Source of the DNA: a virus
IMG/VR virus record: IMGVR_UViG_3300032246_000378
Coordinates: 1 to 33,776 of that record
Strand: one strand, 5' to 3'
Length of the DNA: 33,776 bases
Notes under the pieces: model-generated
The model's database searches: none
Told to the model about the DNA's origin: nothing
Seen by the model: the letters and a program-made list of their open reading frames with translations, nothing else
Part shown: positions 9,394 to 25,382 of the stretch, piece after piece
Position numbering within the stretch: the first letter of the stretch is position 1
Layout of the letters: the number at the start of each line of letters is the position of its first letter
Translations under genes and position numbers: made by a program

Positions 9394-9527
9394 AACTAAG
9401 AATTCGTAATCCATTTTACTTTATTGAGGATGATTGGACGTCTATCAATTGTTTTCATTGTGGTAAACAGTTTGTAATGTATATACCAAACATTCGTGCA
9501 TACAACTATTGTATGGAGTGCGAATGA
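9390..9527 (+). CDS. small zinc-ribbon protein
   Basis: 45 residues with ATG overlapping the ATPase stop (ATGA) and TGA overlapping the next ATG (ATGA). Two CxxC pairs, NCFHCGK (C21, C24) and YCMECE (C41, C44), form a minimal four-Cys zinc ribbon. Too short for an enzyme; probably a nucleic-acid- or protein-binding accessory in the replication operon. The perfect double overlap supports real translation. Confidence 0.65.
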   Translation: MKLRIRNPFYFIEDDWTSINCFHCGKQFVMYIPNIRAYNYCMECE

Positions 9528-10102
9528 CAATATATCCTAATTGGTTTGTCGAACGACAGAATAACTTTGAACTTTATCTATCTTCATTTGCAGACAAGCC
9601 TGACCTACAATTCTTGCAACTCGGGGTATTTAATGGAGATGCAAGTATATGGATGTTAGACAATATCCTAACTGATGAATCATCAGAACTAATTGATGTT
9701 GATACTTGGCTTGGTTCTCCTACGGAGGACGTTCACAGTAAAATGGATTTTGAAGATGTGTGGAAAAGTTACCTTCACAGAATAAAAGATTACAATAATG
9801 TATTTCCTATAAGAGGTGCCAGTAACCAATTTTTTAACAACTATGAAGATGATGGCGATTGGTGGTATGACTTTATCTACATAGATGCAAGTCACACCGC
9901 ATCGGATGTATTAGATGATGCAGTAATGGCGTGGCAACACTTAAAGTCTGGTGGCATTATGGCATTTGATGACTACACTTGGACTCACGAAAAGGGTGGA
10001 CTATATGAGCCTAAATTAGCAATTGATTTTTTTTGCTGGGCTAAACAATTAGAACTTGATATCATTGAAACTAATGAACAATTATGGATACAAAAGAAAT
10101 GA
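9524..10102 (+). CDS. class I SAM-dependent methyltransferase
   Basis: 192 residues from ATG 9524, which overlaps the preceding stop; an upstream in-frame TTG at 9509 is less likely. Rossmann motif I is FLQLGVFNGDAS (30-41), the acidic strand-2 region ELIDVDTW (55-62), and motif IV-like FIYIDASHT (117-125) is followed by LKSGGIMAFDDYTW. This is the Methyltransf_24-type pattern, often found in O- or N-methyltransferases that act on small molecules or sugars rather than in DNA methylases (no DPPY/NPPY). The substrate is unknown. Its place among replication genes leaves nucleotide or DNA-linked modification possible. Confidence 0.75.
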   Translation: MTIYPNWFVERQNNFELYLSSFADKPDLQFLQLGVFNGDASIWMLDNILTDESSELIDVDTWLGSPTEDVHSKMDFEDVWKSYLHRIKDYNNVFPIRGASNQFFNNYEDDGDWWYDFIYIDASHTASDVLDDAVMAWQHLKSGGIMAFDDYTWTHEKGGLYEPKLAIDFFCWAKQLELDIIETNEQLWIQKK

Positions 10103-12108: not shown

Positions 12109-12390
12109 ATGAAAATATTTGGACCTTATAAAGGAAGCAAGCAAAATGGTGGTCGTCCCATCTATGTCATCAAGCGCAAGAAAAAAGATGGCACAACTGA
12201 GACTACATCTACAAACAAAGCCCGTTTAGATTATAAGAAGGCTACTGGCAAAAAGTTAAAGCGTAACCAAGAAGTAGACCATAAAGATAATGGTGGTCGT
12301 GCTGGCAGAGATGGCATATCTAACTTAGGTGTTCTATCTAAAAGTAAAAATGTGGCTAAAGAGAATAAAAGACGAGCCAAAAAGAAATGA
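12109..12390 (+). CDS. HNH-endonuclease-like protein
   Basis: 93 residues, very basic. The centre reads EVDHKDNGGRAGRDGISNLGVLSKSKNV: H58 in VDHKDN and N72 in SNL match the first two HNH landmarks, while the usual third His appears replaced by Asn/Lys (N81 region). There is no zinc CxxC. It could be a small HNH nuclease (free-standing or homing type) or a DNA-binding derivative with altered chemistry. It overlaps the phosphoesterase start (ATGA), so it is part of the operon and not an obvious late insertion. Confidence 0.7.
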   Translation: MKIFGPYKGSKQNGGRPIYVIKRKKKDGTTETTSTNKARLDYKKATGKKLKRNQEVDHKDNGGRAGRDGISNLGVLSKSKNVAKENKRRAKKK

Positions 12391-13127
12391 AAACTATAGT
12401 CTGTATCTCAGACCTGCAAGTACCGTATCATGACGTAGAAGCCGTGAATGCAATCGCAAAGTTCATCAAGTGGTACCAACCCGAAACTGTTGTATCCTGT
12501 GGTGATGAAATGGATATGCAGACTATTAGTAAATGGAGTAAGGGTACCGAGTTAGAGTTTGAGCGTTCTATTGGACGCGACAGAGATACAACTAAAAAAG
12601 TTCTTTATGACTTAACTATTGAACATATGATTAGAAGTAATCATACTGATAGATTATTTAATACAGTTGCAATGAGAGTGCCAGGATTACTTGGCTTACC
12701 TGAACTGCAATTAGAAAACTTCTTAGGACTTGATGAACTAGGAATTAAATACCATAAAGACCCATATGAACTAGCCCCTGGCTGGTTGTTAATGCATGGT
12801 GATGAAGGTAATGTTCAGCCTACGGCTGGTGCTACAGCCCTTGGATTAGCCAAGCGTAGTGGTATGTCAGTAGTCTGTGGGCATACGCACCGTATGGGTT
12901 TGACACATCATACTCAAACATATCGTGGTGGTAAACCTAGAACTGTTTGGGGCATGGAACTAGGAAACTTAATGAACTATGCTAATGCTAAGTATATTAA
13001 GGCTGGCTTATTTACATGGCAACAGGGCTTTGGTATCCTTCATGTTGATGGTAAGACAGTAGTCCCACAGTTAGTTCCTATTGTTAACAAATCATTTACT
13101 GTGGAAGGTAGAACTTTCAAATGGTAG
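12387..13127 (+). CDS. calcineurin-like metallophosphoesterase
   Basis: 246 residues with all five metal-site motifs in order: ISDLQVPYHD (D9, with Gln11 instead of the usual His), CGDEMD (D40), RSNHTDR (N85, H86), MHGDEGN (H137) and CGHTHR (H166, H168). The two-metal phosphoesterase fold is certain. The substrate could be DNA (SbcD-like), cyclic nucleotides or phosphoproteins. The D-x-Q variant of motif I occurs in several phage members. Its position in the replication operon suggests nucleic acid. ATG overlaps the HNH stop. Confidence 0.85.
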   Translation: MKTIVCISDLQVPYHDVEAVNAIAKFIKWYQPETVVSCGDEMDMQTISKWSKGTELEFERSIGRDRDTTKKVLYDLTIEHMIRSNHTDRLFNTVAMRVPGLLGLPELQLENFLGLDELGIKYHKDPYELAPGWLLMHGDEGNVQPTAGATALGLAKRSGMSVVCGHTHRMGLTHHTQTYRGGKPRTVWGMELGNLMNYANAKYIKAGLFTWQQGFGILHVDGKTVVPQLVPIVNKSFTVEGRTFKW

Positions 13128-14955: not shown

Positions 14956-15309
14956 TCACCGCCTTAGTAGGTTTCTTGTCAGATTGTATAGTTTGTAGGC
15001 TTGATAAGAAGCACTACTCCTAGATTCACTAGGTTTAATCCCAGCCATCTCTAAGCGTTCAGCAGCCATCTTGCCTCCCCATATTCCAAATGGTAGATTA
15101 CCCCATCCAGTTTTACCTGATGGCATATGCTCCATCTTCATACCTTCAGCCAAACACTCTTCCTTGACAGGACACGAAGCACATAATTGTAGCGCATAGT
15201 TAACCTCTGATGTAAGTCTAACTATTTTTTCTTCGGTAATTCTACCCGTTGGTACTTCAGGAAACCACCAATCAGGATTAGCATCACCTGTACAATTACC
15301 TACAATCAT
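14956..15309 (-). CDS. WhiB-like iron-sulfur transcription factor
   Basis: 117 residues with the full WhiB signature: C6, then C43-x2-C46-x5-C52 (LCASCPVKEECLAEG) for a [4Fe-4S] cluster, then the turn GIWGG at 75-79, and a basic C-terminus (YKLYNLTRNLLRR) for DNA contact. WhiB proteins occur only in actinobacteria and their phages, so this fixes the host phylum. Phage WhiB proteins can block or redirect host WhiB/sigma control. The ATG overlaps the upstream stop (ATGA). The transcription unit begins at palindrome 15455-15471. Confidence 0.92.
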   Translation of the reverse strand: MIVGNCTGDANPDWWFPEVPTGRITEEKIVRLTSEVNYALQLCASCPVKEECLAEGMKMEHMPSGKTGWGNLPFGIWGGKMAAERLEMAGIKPSESRSSASYQAYKLYNLTRNLLRR

Positions 15310-15440
15310 TCATCCTCCCACATGCGGTCAGGTTCTCCGCTATCATCTTCATCACACTTACATTCTGATTCGTCACATCCATTACAAGGATTCAAATCTA
15401 AAGCAGCATCATCTCCTTGTAAATACATTGGTTCACTCAT
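15306..15440 (-). CDS. small acidic Cys-rich protein
   Basis: 44 residues with an excellent AAGGAGG six bases before the ATG and the 17-bp palindrome 14 bp upstream. It carries PCNGCDESECKCDEDD (four Cys in 11 residues), which may bind zinc or an iron-sulfur cluster; the rest is acidic. The stop overlaps the WhiB start (ATGA), so the two are co-translated and might act together. No known family. Confidence 0.65.
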   Translation of the reverse strand: MSEPMYLQGDDAALDLNPCNGCDESECKCDEDDSGEPDRMWEDE

Positions 15441-15454
15441 ACTATCCTCCTTAG

Positions 15455-15471
15455 TGTATTAAATTAATACA
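15455..15471. promoter_or_regulatory. palindrome site 1
   Basis: Perfect 17-bp palindrome TGTATTAAATTAATACA, 14 bp upstream of the small Cys-rich gene that leads the WhiB unit. One of eight identical sites; see findings. Confidence 0.8.
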
Positions 15472-16116: not shown

Positions 16117-16133
16117 TGTATTAATTTAATACA
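16117..16133. promoter_or_regulatory. palindrome site 2
   Basis: TGTATTAATTTAATACA, perfect 17-bp palindrome, 11 bp upstream of the ATG at 16105 and just after the stop of the previous small gene. Confidence 0.8.
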
Positions 16134-16136
16134 CTA

Positions 16137-16271
16137 CTACAGATTTTGTAGTAGCAACCTTGCTCTAGCAATTATAGCGTCATCTCTCTCATCAGTCAAA
16201 TTAGCGATAGAGATTAACTCTATAATTGTTTTTCTGACTTCTTCTTTAGAAGCCGTAGTCATACTGTCCAT
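16137..16271 (-). CDS. 44-residue hypothetical protein
   Basis: ATG with GGGAGGATATA upstream, starting inside the end of the amidotransferase gene (26 bp overlap). Helical peptide (VRKTIIELISIANLTDERDD, IARARLLLQNL). It ends 4 bp before palindrome site 2. Real translation is likely from the ribosome binding site; function unknown. Confidence 0.55.
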   Translation of the reverse strand: MDSMTTASKEEVRKTIIELISIANLTDERDDAIIARARLLLQNL

Positions 16272-17076
16272 TATATCCTCCCGTTAATTGTTTGTGTCGG
16301 GCTGACGCATCCCTCTCAGGAGTCCAGCATAGGCAACCACTATCTTGTACCATATTACATTCGAAACATGTACCACAGTCATAGCAATAGAATTCATTAC
16401 CATCACCTAATTGCGGGATACCGCAACCATAACAGATGTAATCATCTTCGCTACCAGTAATATCATCTAAGTCATAATAGTCATTAGACTTCTTAAACAT
16501 ATTACTCCATTGACTAGGCTTGTAGCCATCATTAGACCACCAGTTGCCCTCATTATCCCAATGACCTAAGTCCTCATTGATAATGTAGCAGTCATACTCA
16601 GCATTAGGGTCTAGGGTAAACACCGCTATCTTGTTGCCACTAGACCACTTCTCTATCATGCCATACAGATTAGGATTATCTAGTGCTGTGATACCACCCA
16701 TAGATGGGAGAATATCCTCAGCAAAGATACGCGTATCACTACGCTTATCAGTAGGCTCAATATGTACATCTAGTATGCCATTGTGTGCTAAGTATGTAAG
16801 GTCGCTACCACCCACCTTAAATGGATGACAATTTTCCTCGTTCTTGACACCATGCGTAGCAAATCTAGCATGATACATAGCATAACTATTTGGGTATTGC
16901 TTGCGTACCTCTAAGAACTCTTTGATAACCTTCTTAGCGGACATACCCTTGCCAGTAATAATCTTATTACCAGCAAGTACAGCATAGCCAAAGCCATGCG
17001 GGTTATTACATGAAGCACACTCTAAATCCTTGCGCTTCGGTGTACTATTCGGGGAACTTACTACCAATAGGCACAT
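16246..17076 (-). CDS. class II glutamine amidotransferase (Ntn) with C-terminal zinc ribbon
   Basis: 276 residues. The nucleophile is C2, directly after the initiator Met (MCLLVVSS), as required for class II glutaminases. Other landmarks: HGFGYAV (27-33), HARFATHG (69-76), CHPF (83-86), AHNGIL (97-102) and D114 in KRSDTRIF. The domain releases ammonia from glutamine. The last 65 residues are a Cys-rich zinc module (C215, C218, C231, C234, C237, C240, C248, C250). The gene starts inside the end of the amidoligase gene (32 bp overlap, GAGAGGAAAG site), so it should feed ammonia or act with that ligase. Palindrome site 3 lies 92 bp upstream. Confidence 0.8.
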   Translation of the reverse strand: MCLLVVSSPNSTPKRKDLECASCNNPHGFGYAVLAGNKIITGKGMSAKKVIKEFLEVRKQYPNSYAMYHARFATHGVKNEENCHPFKVGGSDLTYLAHNGILDVHIEPTDKRSDTRIFAEDILPSMGGITALDNPNLYGMIEKWSSGNKIAVFTLDPNAEYDCYIINEDLGHWDNEGNWWSNDGYKPSQWSNMFKKSNDYYDLDDITGSEDDYICYGCGIPQLGDGNEFYCYDCGTCFECNMVQDSGCLCWTPERDASARHKQLTGGYNGQYDYGF

Positions 17077-18277
17077 ATTCTTTCCTCTCTATTTTAGTTA
17101 TTACATTGGACATGGCATTTAATCTTTGATTAAGAGAAGGATATAACTCTGCTCTCTCTCGGATATACTGTATTAAATTAATACAGTCTAACTTGTGCTC
17201 TCGGACTTCGGGAACACTCATCACTCTTGTAAACTCAACGCTGGCATGCGCTAAGTCAATACATGACTTGATGAATCTAGTATTTAGACTACCTCTAAAG
17301 ATTCGCATCTCTAGTGTTTGCCTATTGTTGGTATTAACCGCAGAATATCTATCATTATCTCTGTGGGTTCTGCCCAATTTATGAGCAAAGGTTTTCTTAC
17401 CAGTATTAGGGTCAAAGACATCATCAAACTTAGCCCAATGACTAGATGACCTACCAGCAAGCACCTCATAGAAATCCTTATTGTTGTATACCAACTGTAA
17501 GAATCTATGCTGATGAGAGCCACCACTAAATCCAGCACGAGAAATATGTATATGAAGTCCGCAGGTTTTTGTACCCCACGCCATCATGTCGTATCTCTCT
17601 TTAAGTATACCTATGGTATTCCATAGAGTACTAGCATCATTCATAAAATAACTATGGGACAATGGATGAGTTACTATCTCAAACCCACACTCAAGTGAGC
17701 CATCAGATTTTAGATAGGCTAATCCTTCTGATTCTAACTTTTGAGCATACTCGGCAGCAACCCTTCTCTGACCATAATCGCCACCTCGCACCTCAGTTTC
17801 TATCTCTATGCCAAAGTATAAGCGTGTCTGCTCATCCTCTGAACTGTGAAATCTAGGGTCAGGTCGGTAAGAATAATCATGTATTAATCTACCATCATTA
17901 TCCTCATCATGATTATACTCGCAACCATTTAGATAGGTACTATCGCAATCCTCACAGTAAGTGGTGTTATTCTCATAACATCTCTCACACATAGTATCAT
18001 CACTATCATCTGTGCCATAGGTATAACCTGTGAAATAGTTATCGCACAAGTCGCACCAATGAGCATCATTACGGGTACAACCTTGACACCATAACTCACC
18101 CTCTACATCACTATACTCATCATCAACAGTTATTACCTGTTCGCAATGAATACACATTATGACGCAACTGTCGCAGACAGGGTCGCCACTAGTAGTGGTA
18201 GTGCCGTCATCATCACTATTTAATTCAGTATTACAAGCGATACAACACTTGGTATCTACTTCATCAATAGTATCCAT
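17045..18277 (-). CDS. amidoligase-family enzyme with N-terminal zinc ribbons
   Basis: 410 residues. Residues 1-120 hold about eight CxxC-type pairs (CCIAC, CDSC, CIHC, CQGC, CDLC, CERC, CEDC), a stack of zinc ribbons. From about 150 comes the glutamine-synthetase-like amidoligase domain: YFGIEIETEV (154-163), YLKSDGSLECGFEIVTHPLS (188-207), CGLHIHISRAGF (239-250) and EMRIFRGSLN (323-332). The family joins a carboxylate to an amine using ATP. Its next-door class II amidotransferase matches the gene pairing described for this family by Iyer and co-workers, who proposed peptide tagging or new metabolites. The target is unknown. Confidence 0.8.
   Translation of the reverse strand: MDTIDEVDTKCCIACNTELNSDDDGTTTTSGDPVCDSCVIMCIHCEQVITVDDEYSDVEGELWCQGCTRNDAHWCDLCDNYFTGYTYGTDDSDDTMCERCYENNTTYCEDCDSTYLNGCEYNHDEDNDGRLIHDYSYRPDPRFHSSEDEQTRLYFGIEIETEVRGGDYGQRRVAAEYAQKLESEGLAYLKSDGSLECGFEIVTHPLSHSYFMNDASTLWNTIGILKERYDMMAWGTKTCGLHIHISRAGFSGGSHQHRFLQLVYNNKDFYEVLAGRSSSHWAKFDDVFDPNTGKKTFAHKLGRTHRDNDRYSAVNTNNRQTLEMRIFRGSLNTRFIKSCIDLAHASVEFTRVMSVPEVREHKLDCINLIQYIRERAELYPSLNQRLNAMSNVITKIERKEYVPIGSKFPE
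17169..17185. promoter_or_regulatory. palindrome site 3 (inside coding sequence)
   Basis: TGTATTAAATTAATACA lies within the 3' end of the amidoligase gene (codons for CINLIQ) and 92 bp upstream of the amidotransferase start. With AC/GT it extends to a 21-bp perfect palindrome. Keeping it inside a gene suggests selection for the DNA site. Confidence 0.75.
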
Positions 18278-18301: not shown

Positions 18302-18318
18302 TGTATTAATTTAATACA
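18302..18318. promoter_or_regulatory. palindrome site 4
   Basis: TGTATTAATTTAATACA, 24 bp upstream of the amidoligase ATG (18277), with GAGAGAGGATAG between site and start. Confidence 0.8.
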
Positions 18319-18707: not shown

Positions 18708-18724
18708 TGTATTAATTTAATACA
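18708..18724. promoter_or_regulatory. palindrome site 5
   Basis: TGTATTAATTTAATACA; with AG/CT it forms a 21-bp perfect palindrome (18706-18726). It lies 21 bp upstream of the membrane-protein ATG at 18686. Confidence 0.8.
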
Positions 18725-18844: not shown

Positions 18845-19009
18845 TTAGTTGGTGTCCGAGTCCAACTCAGCATCCATCAGCAAGTCATCATACTCATCAT
18901 CATACTCGTCAAAGGTACCCATATCAACCTCTAACAATTCTTCGGTGGCGAGTATCTCGGCAACCTCATCCTCACTCATAAAGTCTAATGCTATATCGTC
19001 GCCACTCAT
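18845..19009 (-). CDS. small highly acidic protein
   Basis: 54 residues with ATG overlapping the previous stop (ATGA). Extremely acidic: MSGDDIALDFMSEDEVAEIL and FDEYDDEYDDLLMDAELDSD, with no Lys or Arg. Acidic mini-proteins of phages often mimic DNA or bind host nucleic-acid enzymes, but that is inference from composition. Located directly upstream of the tRNA-like element. Confidence 0.6.
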   Translation of the reverse strand: MSGDDIALDFMSEDEVAEILATEELLEVDMGTFDEYDDEYDDLLMDAELDSDTN

Positions 19010-19181: not shown

Positions 19182-19198
19182 TGTATTAATTTAATACA
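19182..19198. promoter_or_regulatory. palindrome site 6
   Basis: TGTATTAATTTAATACA, 23 bp upstream of the ATG at 19158. A second copy (site 7) lies 96 bp further upstream, the only doubled case. Confidence 0.8.
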
Positions 19199-19277: not shown

Positions 19278-19294
19278 TGTATTAATTTAATACA
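19278..19294. promoter_or_regulatory. palindrome site 7
   Basis: TGTATTAATTTAATACA, upstream of site 6, with no start codon of its own in the 83-bp interval; probably a second operator for the 19158 unit. Confidence 0.75.
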
Positions 19295-19518: not shown

Positions 19519-20124
19519 TTACTTTTTGGCTGTTGCTGAGTTTCTTGCGATTACTTTCAGAATCTCGTTTAAGTTTGCGAGGGTCTGAAGGTCGCTAGTT
19601 TTGATACTTTCCCATGAGCCATTACCCTTTAGCGCTTTTAGGTCGCTAACTGTTTTAGTGAAGATGGTTTCCACGCTTGCTGGCGCTTTTGGCGCTGTTG
19701 CGTTTTTGCGTTCACGGGTTTTTTGTAGCGTTGGGGTTTCGCTGGCTAGTTGGGCATAATCGGCTACCTTCTCCAATGTTGCTTCTACTTCAGCCTTGCC
19801 AACGGCTGTTTGTAGGCGCTGTGCCATTTTGATTAACTCAGCGATGGATACTGTTTTAGCGCCTACTGTTTTGTTCAGAATCTCATCCATAGTAATAAAA
19901 TACTGAACATGGCTTGCGCGGATGGTTGGGGCTGTGCCGTTTGCTTTCTCAATGCTTGCTTGAATATCGCGCACGCTTGAGGTGTTTGCCTTTAGGCGTT
20001 TAACGCATAAGGCAATAAAGCCTTGCTCGCCTTCAAGGTTGATTAACTTGCTGTAAGCATCTACAACCACATTTGAGATAGTTGCGGATGGTGTTGCCTT
20101 TTTTGTTTTTGTTGCTGTTGCCAT
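19519..20124 (-). CDS. basic Ala/Thr-rich protein, possible DNA-binding
   Basis: 201 residues, ATG at 20124 with GAAAGAGAG upstream and palindrome site 8 at 28 bp. Basic ends (MATATKTKKATPS and ARNSATAKK) flank a helical core (GEQGFIALCVKRLKANTSSV, ASHVQYFITMDEILNKTVGA, IAELIKMAQRLQTAVGKAEV). SSVRDIQASIEKANG could be a helix-turn-helix part. No known family. It is a one-gene unit with its own site and terminator, next to the iteron region, which suits a regulator or replication/partition protein. Codon use is richer in G+C than its neighbours. Confidence 0.6.
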   Translation of the reverse strand: MATATKTKKATPSATISNVVVDAYSKLINLEGEQGFIALCVKRLKANTSSVRDIQASIEKANGTAPTIRASHVQYFITMDEILNKTVGAKTVSIAELIKMAQRLQTAVGKAEVEATLEKVADYAQLASETPTLQKTRERKNATAPKAPASVETIFTKTVSDLKALKGNGSWESIKTSDLQTLANLNEILKVIARNSATAKK

Positions 20125-20152: not shown

Positions 20153-20169
20153 TGTATTAATTTAATACA
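20153..20169. promoter_or_regulatory. palindrome site 8
   Basis: TGTATTAATTTAATACA, extended by C/G to 19 bp, 28 bp upstream of the ATG at 20124. Confidence 0.8.
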
Positions 20170-24839: not shown

Positions 24840-25382
24840 ATGACAACAATAATTGGTTTAGAATATAAAGACCGTTGTTTCTTGGTTGCAGATAGCCAAA
24901 CGACTGATGAGGGTGGTCGTATTTATACACATCCTGAAGTTGAAAAGATTACAGCAAATGGTTCATTTTTAATTGCAGGCTCTGGCGAAACATTACCTTG
25001 CGATATAGCACAACATATTTGGGAATCACCTATTCCTACAAAGCAAGATAGAGAAGACCTTTATCGTTTTATGATTAGAAAAGCAATGCCATCTCTTCGC
25101 AAGTGTATGACAGAGAATGGTTATAACTTTGATGAAGATACTAAAGAAACTCGCTTTCAGTTTATAATTGCTGTTGGTGGGGAAATATTTGATGTTGACC
25201 AAGAATTGTCTATAAGCAAATCTGCAGATGGAGTATACGCTGCAGGTTCTGGAGCACCATACGCATTAGGTGCTATTCATGCAGGAGCAGATGCTTTTGA
25301 AGCAATGGAGATAGCATCTAAACTTACAGCATTTACATCAGGACCTTACATATCAAGAGAACAACCAAGAAAAATTAAGTAG
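24840..25382 (+). CDS. proteasome/HslV-like Ntn hydrolase, probable capsid protease
   Basis: 180 residues. After removal of Met, Thr2 would be N-terminal: TTIIGLEYKDRCFLVADSQT matches the proteasome beta-subunit start, with T1, D17 (in ADS) and a Lys at EKI (K36 of the precursor) in the catalytic places. Later AAGSGAPYALGAIHAGADAF matches the GSG..YA.G motif, followed by EIASKLTAFTSGPY. This is a full Ntn threonine peptidase core. It sits right after the portal, where phages usually encode the prohead protease, so capsid maturation is the favoured role (inferred). Start ATG has TAGGGGAC upstream. Confidence 0.8.
   Translation: MTTIIGLEYKDRCFLVADSQTTDEGGRIYTHPEVEKITANGSFLIAGSGETLPCDIAQHIWESPIPTKQDREDLYRFMIRKAMPSLRKCMTENGYNFDEDTKETRFQFIIAVGGEIFDVDQELSISKSADGVYAAGSGAPYALGAIHAGADAFEAMEIASKLTAFTSGPYISREQPRKIK

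Follow-up and report, generated by a model that had tools for sequence, protein, structure and literature searches.

Amidoligase and amidotransferase gene pairs in phages

Genes for an amidoligase and for a class II glutamine amidotransferase (GAT) have been reported together in several groups of phages: in the OM43 phages MEP401 and MEP402, where a PF12224 amidoligase adjoins a class II GAT (PMC10580990), in Marvin and phiEco32 (as cited in PMC10580990), in LUZ24-like phages (PMC3890496) and in Pseudoalteromonas phages (PMC5498523). In the phiEco32/LUZ24-like "peptidoglycan modification" cassettes the two genes belong to the early region (PMC5498523; PMC3890496), and the Marvin pair has been mentioned as a possible secondary-metabolite system (Mageeney 2012, as cited in PMC10580990). 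Phage annotations have long recorded such pairs without assigning them a substrate. Here we describe the pair encoded by the IMG/VR virus record IMGVR_UViG_3300032246_000378, a stretch of 33,776 bases from a freshwater virus of bacteria that is hereafter called the window, in which both proteins carry cysteine-rich modules of the zinc-finger kind. Since the pair is already in print, in agreement with a preliminary description of this DNA that had called the pairing known from comparative genomics, the window pair is a zinc-ribbon variant of a known gene pair.

A search in other phages, which that description had proposed, found the two genes adjacent in Marvin, in a Manatee Spring podovirus and in MEP402. 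The Marvin proteins gp105 and gp106, annotated merely as GAT-domain proteins, form the same adjacent pair with about 29–31% and 34% identity to the window proteins, and 19 Mycobacterium phage records in all, those of Marvin and its relatives, carry it. As in the window, the Marvin GAT has an eight-Cys tail and the Marvin ligase has part of the front cysteine array, but this array is shorter (4 CxxC), the neighbouring genes are different and there is no repeated palindrome in the 9.4 kb examined. MEP402 differs further, its ligase having a partial front array and its GAT no eight-Cys tail. The phiEco32/LUZ24-like cassettes add an ATP-grasp gene, a second COOH-NH2 ligase and/or GGCT, none of which was found among the 40 window open reading frames (ORFs) scanned against PHROGs. 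PafA and Dop of the pupylation system act on protein carboxylates with a glutamine synthetase (GS)-like fold, as found in the window ligase; unlike them, the window pair has a GAT partner, and no Pup-like gene was identified in the window. MurT has a Mur ligase fold and GatD a class I GAT fold, and neither protein is known to carry a zinc-finger array. Their likeness to the window pair is one of logic only, in that a ligase is fed by a separate GAT subunit (PMC3267633). No paper on the zinc ribbons of amidoligase/GAT enzymes was found in the literature searched, though Iyer 2009 and Mageeney 2012 may already mention them; in PMC12419801, amidoligase appears just in the reference list.

The ligase and its amidotransferase

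The two genes lie on the minus strand of the window, share an overlap of 32 nt and encode a 410-aa ligase and a 276-aa GAT, with the following features:

17045–18277, minus strand: gene of the 410-aa amidoligase, a COOH-NH2 ligase of the GS fold behind an N-terminal zinc-finger array (PF12224 match; AlphaFold2 model; YbdK/GCL/GS fold)
17918–18247, minus strand: LIM-like zinc-finger array, ligase residues 11–120, 7 CxxC (profile against LIM domains; invariant Cys)
17048–17830, minus strand: ligase catalytic domain, residues 150–410 (VIA match to 1tt4; invariant residues)
16246–17076, minus strand: class II glutamine amidotransferase gene, 276 aa (AlphaFold2 model; GlmS glutaminase match)
17071–17073, minus strand: Cys2, predicted N-terminal nucleophile once Met is removed (Cys in 56/56)
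16321–16440, minus strand: eight-Cys zinc domain, RING/ribbon-like, GAT residues 213–252 (Cys conservation; pLDDT about 71–84)

The preliminary description had assigned these overlapping genes to an amidoligase and a Cys2 glutaminase, and the family match of the ligase, the predicted folds and the invariance of Cys2 bear this out. The ligase matches PF12224 (Amidoligase_2) with 33.1 bits against a curated cut-off of 22 (E 6.9e-8), and its AlphaFold2 model is confident (pLDDT 90.8). In VIA comparisons, in which Z values within 1 count as ties, residues 150–410 fit YbdK (1tt4) with Z 13.3 (227 residues, rmsd 3.7), plant glutamate-cysteine ligase (GCL) with Z 12.9 and glutamine synthetases with Z 12.4, while Dop (9cku, E 3.8e-4) and PafA (4bjr, E 3.1e-3) are also among the structure matches. 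Thirteen residues (G156, E158, E160, K190, D192, E200, H204, H242, H244, R276, N315, E323 and R325) are kept in 62/62 ligases of an alignment which, like that of 56 GATs used below, is a wider set including Nocardia, other actinomycetes and Firmicutes. Over 383 ligases the strict patterns are found in 383 (FGxExE, by selection), 350 (DGS..G.E), 378 (G.H.H) and 378 (N..T.E.R.F) sequences. By transfer from GS, we take these acidic, His and Arg/Asn motifs to form the metal, ATP and substrate site; all are intact in the window ligase, so that the loss of ATP- or metal-binding residues, named at the outset as the finding that would speak against the assignment, is not seen.

The GAT scores below the Pfam curated cut-offs of GATase_4 (21.4 against 23 bits), GATase_6 (22.3 against 27) and GATase_2 (14.5 against 19.9), and is thus not filed in any of these three families. 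Its AlphaFold2 model (pLDDT 86.6, the tail being weaker) matches the glutaminase domain of GlmS over residues 2–186 (VIA Z 14.2, rmsd 3.5, 170 residues), and Cys2, R71, T74, N99, G100 and D114 are kept in 56/56 GATs. The last five of these residues (H.R..T, HNG and D) are presumably those of the glutamine site, their roles being carried over from GlmS.

In addition to the catalytic domains, both proteins have cysteine-rich regions, which had been described as about seven CxxC pairs at the front of the ligase and eight Cys at the end of the GAT; the counts are exactly 7 and exactly 8, the latter within GAT residues 215–250. In 10,000 shuffles per protein the observed number of CxxC was never reached (7 in the ligase against a shuffled maximum of 6; 5 in the GAT against a maximum of 4). 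Among 51 representative ligases of the family all front Cys are invariant except C78 (41/51) and C11 (7/51), and in the wider alignment C64, C67, C75, C100, C108 and C119 are present in 62/62 sequences, with nine further front Cys in 54–61. At the GAT tail 8/8 Cys are invariant in 34/34 GATs and are kept in at least 90% of the 56-GAT alignment. The zinc ligands, nearly as conserved as the catalytic residues, are hence almost as constrained as the active site. As for the type of module, the ligase-family profile matches tandem LIM domains (best 2cup, E=1.4e-4, profile positions 11–100); a Pfam scan of the ligase gave no LIM family at E<=0.1, and Foldseek on the ligase model gave one LIM entry (2miu, E 0.023). 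The GAT-tail profile has a weak RING match (0.084). Very little of the zinc regions of the two models was included in the VIA fold comparisons.

Pairing, neighbours and spread

The dereplicated fetched loci yielded 397 ligases with a length of 280 aa or more, from which 7 without recognisable FGxExE were dropped. Of the resulting 390, 370 have a same-strand GAT within 3 kb, 9 have none although their downstream flank exceeds 2.5 kb and the other 11 are situated at contig edges, which makes 370 of the 379 distinct ligases with enough flank. The GAT is downstream of the ligase in 363 of 376 pairs, with a median gap of 1 nt. Homologous loci, which might have had unrelated neighbours throughout, thus share the GAT as a near-constant partner. 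One 681-aa ORF spanning ligase and GAT (L270, 5173–7218, from an Atopobiaceae metagenome-assembled genome) was not accepted as proof of docking and is probably a frame artefact: the Arg/Pro-rich stretch between its two parts suggests translation out of frame, and the Cys of the GAT part would lie inside the chain.

A consistent third gene encoding a substrate peptide, which the preliminary description had suggested looking for, was not recovered. In an all-against-all BLAST of ORFs of at least 45 aa around 63 divergent loci, representing 65 ligase clusters, the most widespread neighbour family apart from the pair reaches 13 loci; ORFs below 45 aa or without BLAST similarity would escape this comparison. 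The family found in 13/63 reads like terminase, and several other shared-neighbour entries look like antisense shadows of the pair itself. As no neighbour family is general, a substrate supplied by the host is the simpler reading. Very acidic small proteins are encoded beside the pair at 18845–19009 (54 aa) and 15306–15440 (44 aa) and are conserved in close relatives only; as substrate candidates they are possible but unsupported.

Two cultured "Ca. Planktophila" phages, E7 and F5 (OX376640/1; PMC10202952), are colinear with the window, at 74% identity in the terminase and 87% in the portal protein; with 33.8 kb against their 39 kb, the window is possibly incomplete. This kinship points to an actinobacterial host, as does a further gene of the leftward block:

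14956–15309, minus strand: WhiB-like protein, actinobacterial-host marker (PF02467, 2.9e-8)

Beyond phages of this kind, a genome scan limited to the best 80 of 325 matches (76 distinct loci) located ligases across numerous species of Nocardia as well as in other actinomycetes and in Clostridia. Two tandem ligases are present in 39 of 74 genome loci examined, for example in the Nocardia loci L203, L204 and L209, which have the order ligase-GAT-ligase-GAT. The median identity of the tandem ligases is 63% for first copies and 63% for second copies between loci, against 57% for the two copies within a locus; for the tandem GATs (36 loci) it is 65% and 66% between counterparts and 58% within a locus. 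The copies being nearer to their counterparts elsewhere than to their own neighbour, the pair was duplicated, and has since been maintained, as one unit. In one Nocardia locus the neighbours are Prim-Pol and DUF2637, homologues of which recur in 8 and 7 loci, and DUF4192 neighbours are found in three other actinomycete loci. Judging from these few loci, the actinomycete context looks like that of mobile elements; a spread of the pair by mobile elements was not found in the literature searched. Five ligase loci (L248, L257, L260, L268 and L272) are on separate contigs of one Butyricicoccus pullicaecorum genome. The locus L235, which bears a Lokiarchaeota label, encodes an SSB and a DnaB helicase and may be a phage contig, so no archaeal host is claimed.

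Proposed mechanism and alternatives

We propose, giving it about an even chance, that the pair is a two-subunit glutamine-dependent amidoligase, probably made early, the zinc modules of which bind the partner or, more probably, a macromolecule of the host that serves as substrate. In this scheme the GAT subunit, whose mature N-terminus is Cys, would hydrolyse glutamine and pass the ammonia to the ligase, which, having the fold of GS and gamma-glutamyl-cysteine ligase and the metal/ATP motifs, would activate a carboxylate with ATP and convert it into an amide. The LIM-like array of the ligase and the eight-Cys domain of the GAT would serve as protein-interaction modules for the partner or, with greater probability, for the host macromolecule, and both proteins would be produced early, from a leftward gene block with a palindromic operator ahead of the genes, to the presumed benefit of the phage.

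Several observations weigh against this proposal. EgtC, a gamma-glutamyl hydrolase that does not donate ammonia, fits the GAT at Z 13.9, tied with GlmS; as EgtC shares the GAT fold, the fold by itself is no proof of glutaminase activity or ammonia transfer. At the position that we take to be the ammonia gate of GlmS, an aromatic residue is found in just 203 of 351 GATs. Nine of 379 ligases lack a nearby GAT, in a tally inflated towards pairs because some loci were found via a GAT query, and in a C. difficile phage the ligase is adjoined by the gene of an RlaP-like protein instead. Partner docking via the zinc ribbons is conjectural: 238 of 241 ribbon-bearing GATs accompany ligases with at least 4 CxxC in raw counts, and over 61 clusters the association of the two ribbons is not significant (Fisher p = 0.11). 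Substrate genes that are shorter than 45 aa, or that have diverged beyond the reach of BLAST, would escape the neighbour comparison. Finally, E7 and F5 (L598 and L599) are without both genes of the pair, whereas, among 80 loci fetched for closer terminase relatives, all 22 that extend 5.5 kb or more upstream have both; the pair is therefore a stable gain in one lineage, or a loss in the other, and not a requirement of the family.

The main rival, which we hold to be unlikely, is a gamma-glutamyl cycle, in which the ligase would gamma-glutamylate an amine and the Ntn hydrolase would undo this, the GAT not being an ammonia donor. Ergothioneine synthesis offers a model, EgtA adding and EgtC removing the gamma-glutamyl group. 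The closest solved folds of the ligase are indeed gamma-glutamyl ligases (YbdK and plant GCL), and the GAT matches EgtC at a score tied with that of GlmS. Moreover, a GGCT gene lies near the amidoligase and GAT genes in the Stenotrophomonas phage StenR_269 and in further published phages (PMC5498523; PMC10945688). By contrast, no GGCT is present among the 40 window ORFs scanned, and the close coupling and near-constant pairing of the genes suit the subunits of one enzyme better than two opposed enzymes.

Distinctly improbable is a modification, by amidation or otherwise, of peptidoglycan or some other surface structure that would block the adsorption of further phages. Such an effect has been proposed for cassettes of the phiEco32 type (as cited in PMC10580990, PMC5498523 and PMC11318856), and the GAT-dependent amidation of wall acids is established chemistry, as in MurT/GatD (PMC3267633). 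However, the scan of 40 window ORFs yielded neither the ATP-grasp nor the GGCT gene of the phiEco32/LUZ24-type cassette, the 63 divergent loci show no wall gene linked to the pair, and the zinc-finger arrays would point to a macromolecule of the cytosol.

We give little credence to a helper of nitrogen metabolism, by which the pair would release or fix ammonia for nucleotide and amino acid supply, as suggested for a different phage that carries both kinds of gene (PMC10945688), given that a dedicated ligase, an invariant zinc array and the duplication of the unit in Nocardia are unnecessary for bulk nitrogen supply. Base hypermodification occurs in phages, and the window encodes a methyltransferase-like protein at 9509–10102 (PF13578; DNA-methyltransferase PHROG), but amidation of a carboxylated base by the ligase is the least credible reading, no base-modification gene having been identified beside the pair and no neighbour family being found in more than 13 of the 63 divergent loci.

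Palindromes and a candidate regulator

The preliminary description had noticed one palindrome before each gene of the pair. Both are real (18302–18318 and 17169–17185), yet they are two of eight exact copies of TGTATTAAWTTAATACA between 15455 and 20169 (0.45 expected), and hence are not specific for the pair, being part of a broader gene block that is presumably early. Even if as many as three mismatches are tolerated, the rest of the window has no copy. Six copies are 12–29 nt ahead of a start codon, one is 120 nt ahead and one is within the ligase gene:

15455–15471, no strand: palindrome, exact copy, 15 nt ahead of a 44-aa gene
16117–16133, no strand: palindrome, exact copy, 12 nt ahead of a 75-aa gene
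17169–17185, no strand: palindrome, exact copy, within the ligase gene, 93 nt ahead of the GAT start
18302–18318, no strand: palindrome, exact copy, operator-like, 25 nt ahead of the ligase start
18708–18724, no strand: palindrome, exact copy, 22 nt ahead of a 42-aa gene
19182–19198, no strand: palindrome, exact copy, 24 nt ahead of a 50-aa gene
19278–19294, no strand: palindrome, exact copy, 120 nt ahead of the same 50-aa gene
20153–20169, no strand: palindrome, exact copy, 29 nt ahead of the candidate regulator gene
19519–20124, minus strand: 201-aa protein, candidate DNA-binding regulator of the palindromes (identity tracks operator type, 32 loci)

Among 112 family loci, 85 could be tested, the remainder having short flanks, and a perfect palindrome with 7-bp arms is repeated at least three times in 58 of these 85, against 0/85 shuffled controls. 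In the other 27, which include the most divergent clade, no palindrome reaches three copies, and the same is true of E7 and F5. The palindrome sequence varies between related phages (about 20 types, e.g., in L018, L088 and L193), GTATGATNATCATAC being a type other than TGTATTAAWTTAATACA of the window, while the positions relative to the ligase stay alike. The 201-aa protein, the gene of which directly follows the first operator, diverges rapidly and in step with the operator: among 32 sequences, compared in pairs of loci with ligases at least 75% identical, it is 68–99% identical in pairs with the same operator (n=35) and 13–40% in pairs with different operators (n=29). It has no match in Pfam at the cut-offs, in PHROGs or in the phage collection. 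From these sequence patterns, palindromes and protein may be read as a swappable regulator/operator switch, a candidate immunity-like system (cf. PMC6550527). In L018, L088, L094 and similar loci, a sequence like a tRNA 3′ half abuts the operator about 400–600 nt upstream of the ligase.

The closest described repeats are those of the Cluster O phages, 17-bp dyads of the form 7-3-7, many of them in the leftward operon and reported without a function (PMC4351075); a 33 kb stretch of Firecracker has 25 copies. Like these, the window palindromes are 17 bp long, with 7-bp arms, a 3-bp centre and TG...CA ends, and lie in a leftward block; unlike them, they are confined to the early block, are mostly near start codons, are diversified in sequence and are tied to a candidate regulator, of which no homologue was found in the 33 kb of Firecracker. 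A diversified palindrome switch of this kind was not found described in a narrow literature search.

Other features of the window

An HslV-family peptidase-like protein (PHROG 1040) is encoded at 24840–25382, directly after the portal gene, and is perhaps a capsid protease. A metallophosphoesterase gene (12387–13127) has no counterpart found in E7/F5; metallophosphoesterase is frequent in genomes of OM43 phages, a group that also has the amidoligase/GAT pair (PMC10580990). No Rfam match and no tRNA were found in the window, and six proteins tested gave no match to the PADLOC models of defence systems.

Implications

A bolder reading, which we offer as tentative and rather doubtful as a whole, is that of a mobile-element-borne, zinc-finger-guided, glutamine-dependent ligase that would amidate selected acidic residues in a protein of the host. 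On this view, phages of Actinobacteria and Firmicutes, together with conjugative-element-like loci of Nocardia, would spread a system of post-translational modification, which in freshwater phages would be placed under a diversifying repressor/operator control.

What had been a recurrent entry in phage gene lists is now a subfamily defined by invariant zinc ligands, a travelling unit of two genes that was duplicated as such in Nocardia. With an isolated model at hand, gp105/106 of Marvin in Mycobacterium smegmatis, and with the cultured relatives E7 and F5 that are without the pair, its function is directly testable. The diversified operator-like palindromes, together with their candidate cognate protein, may in turn give a handle on the 17-bp repeats of the Cluster O phages.

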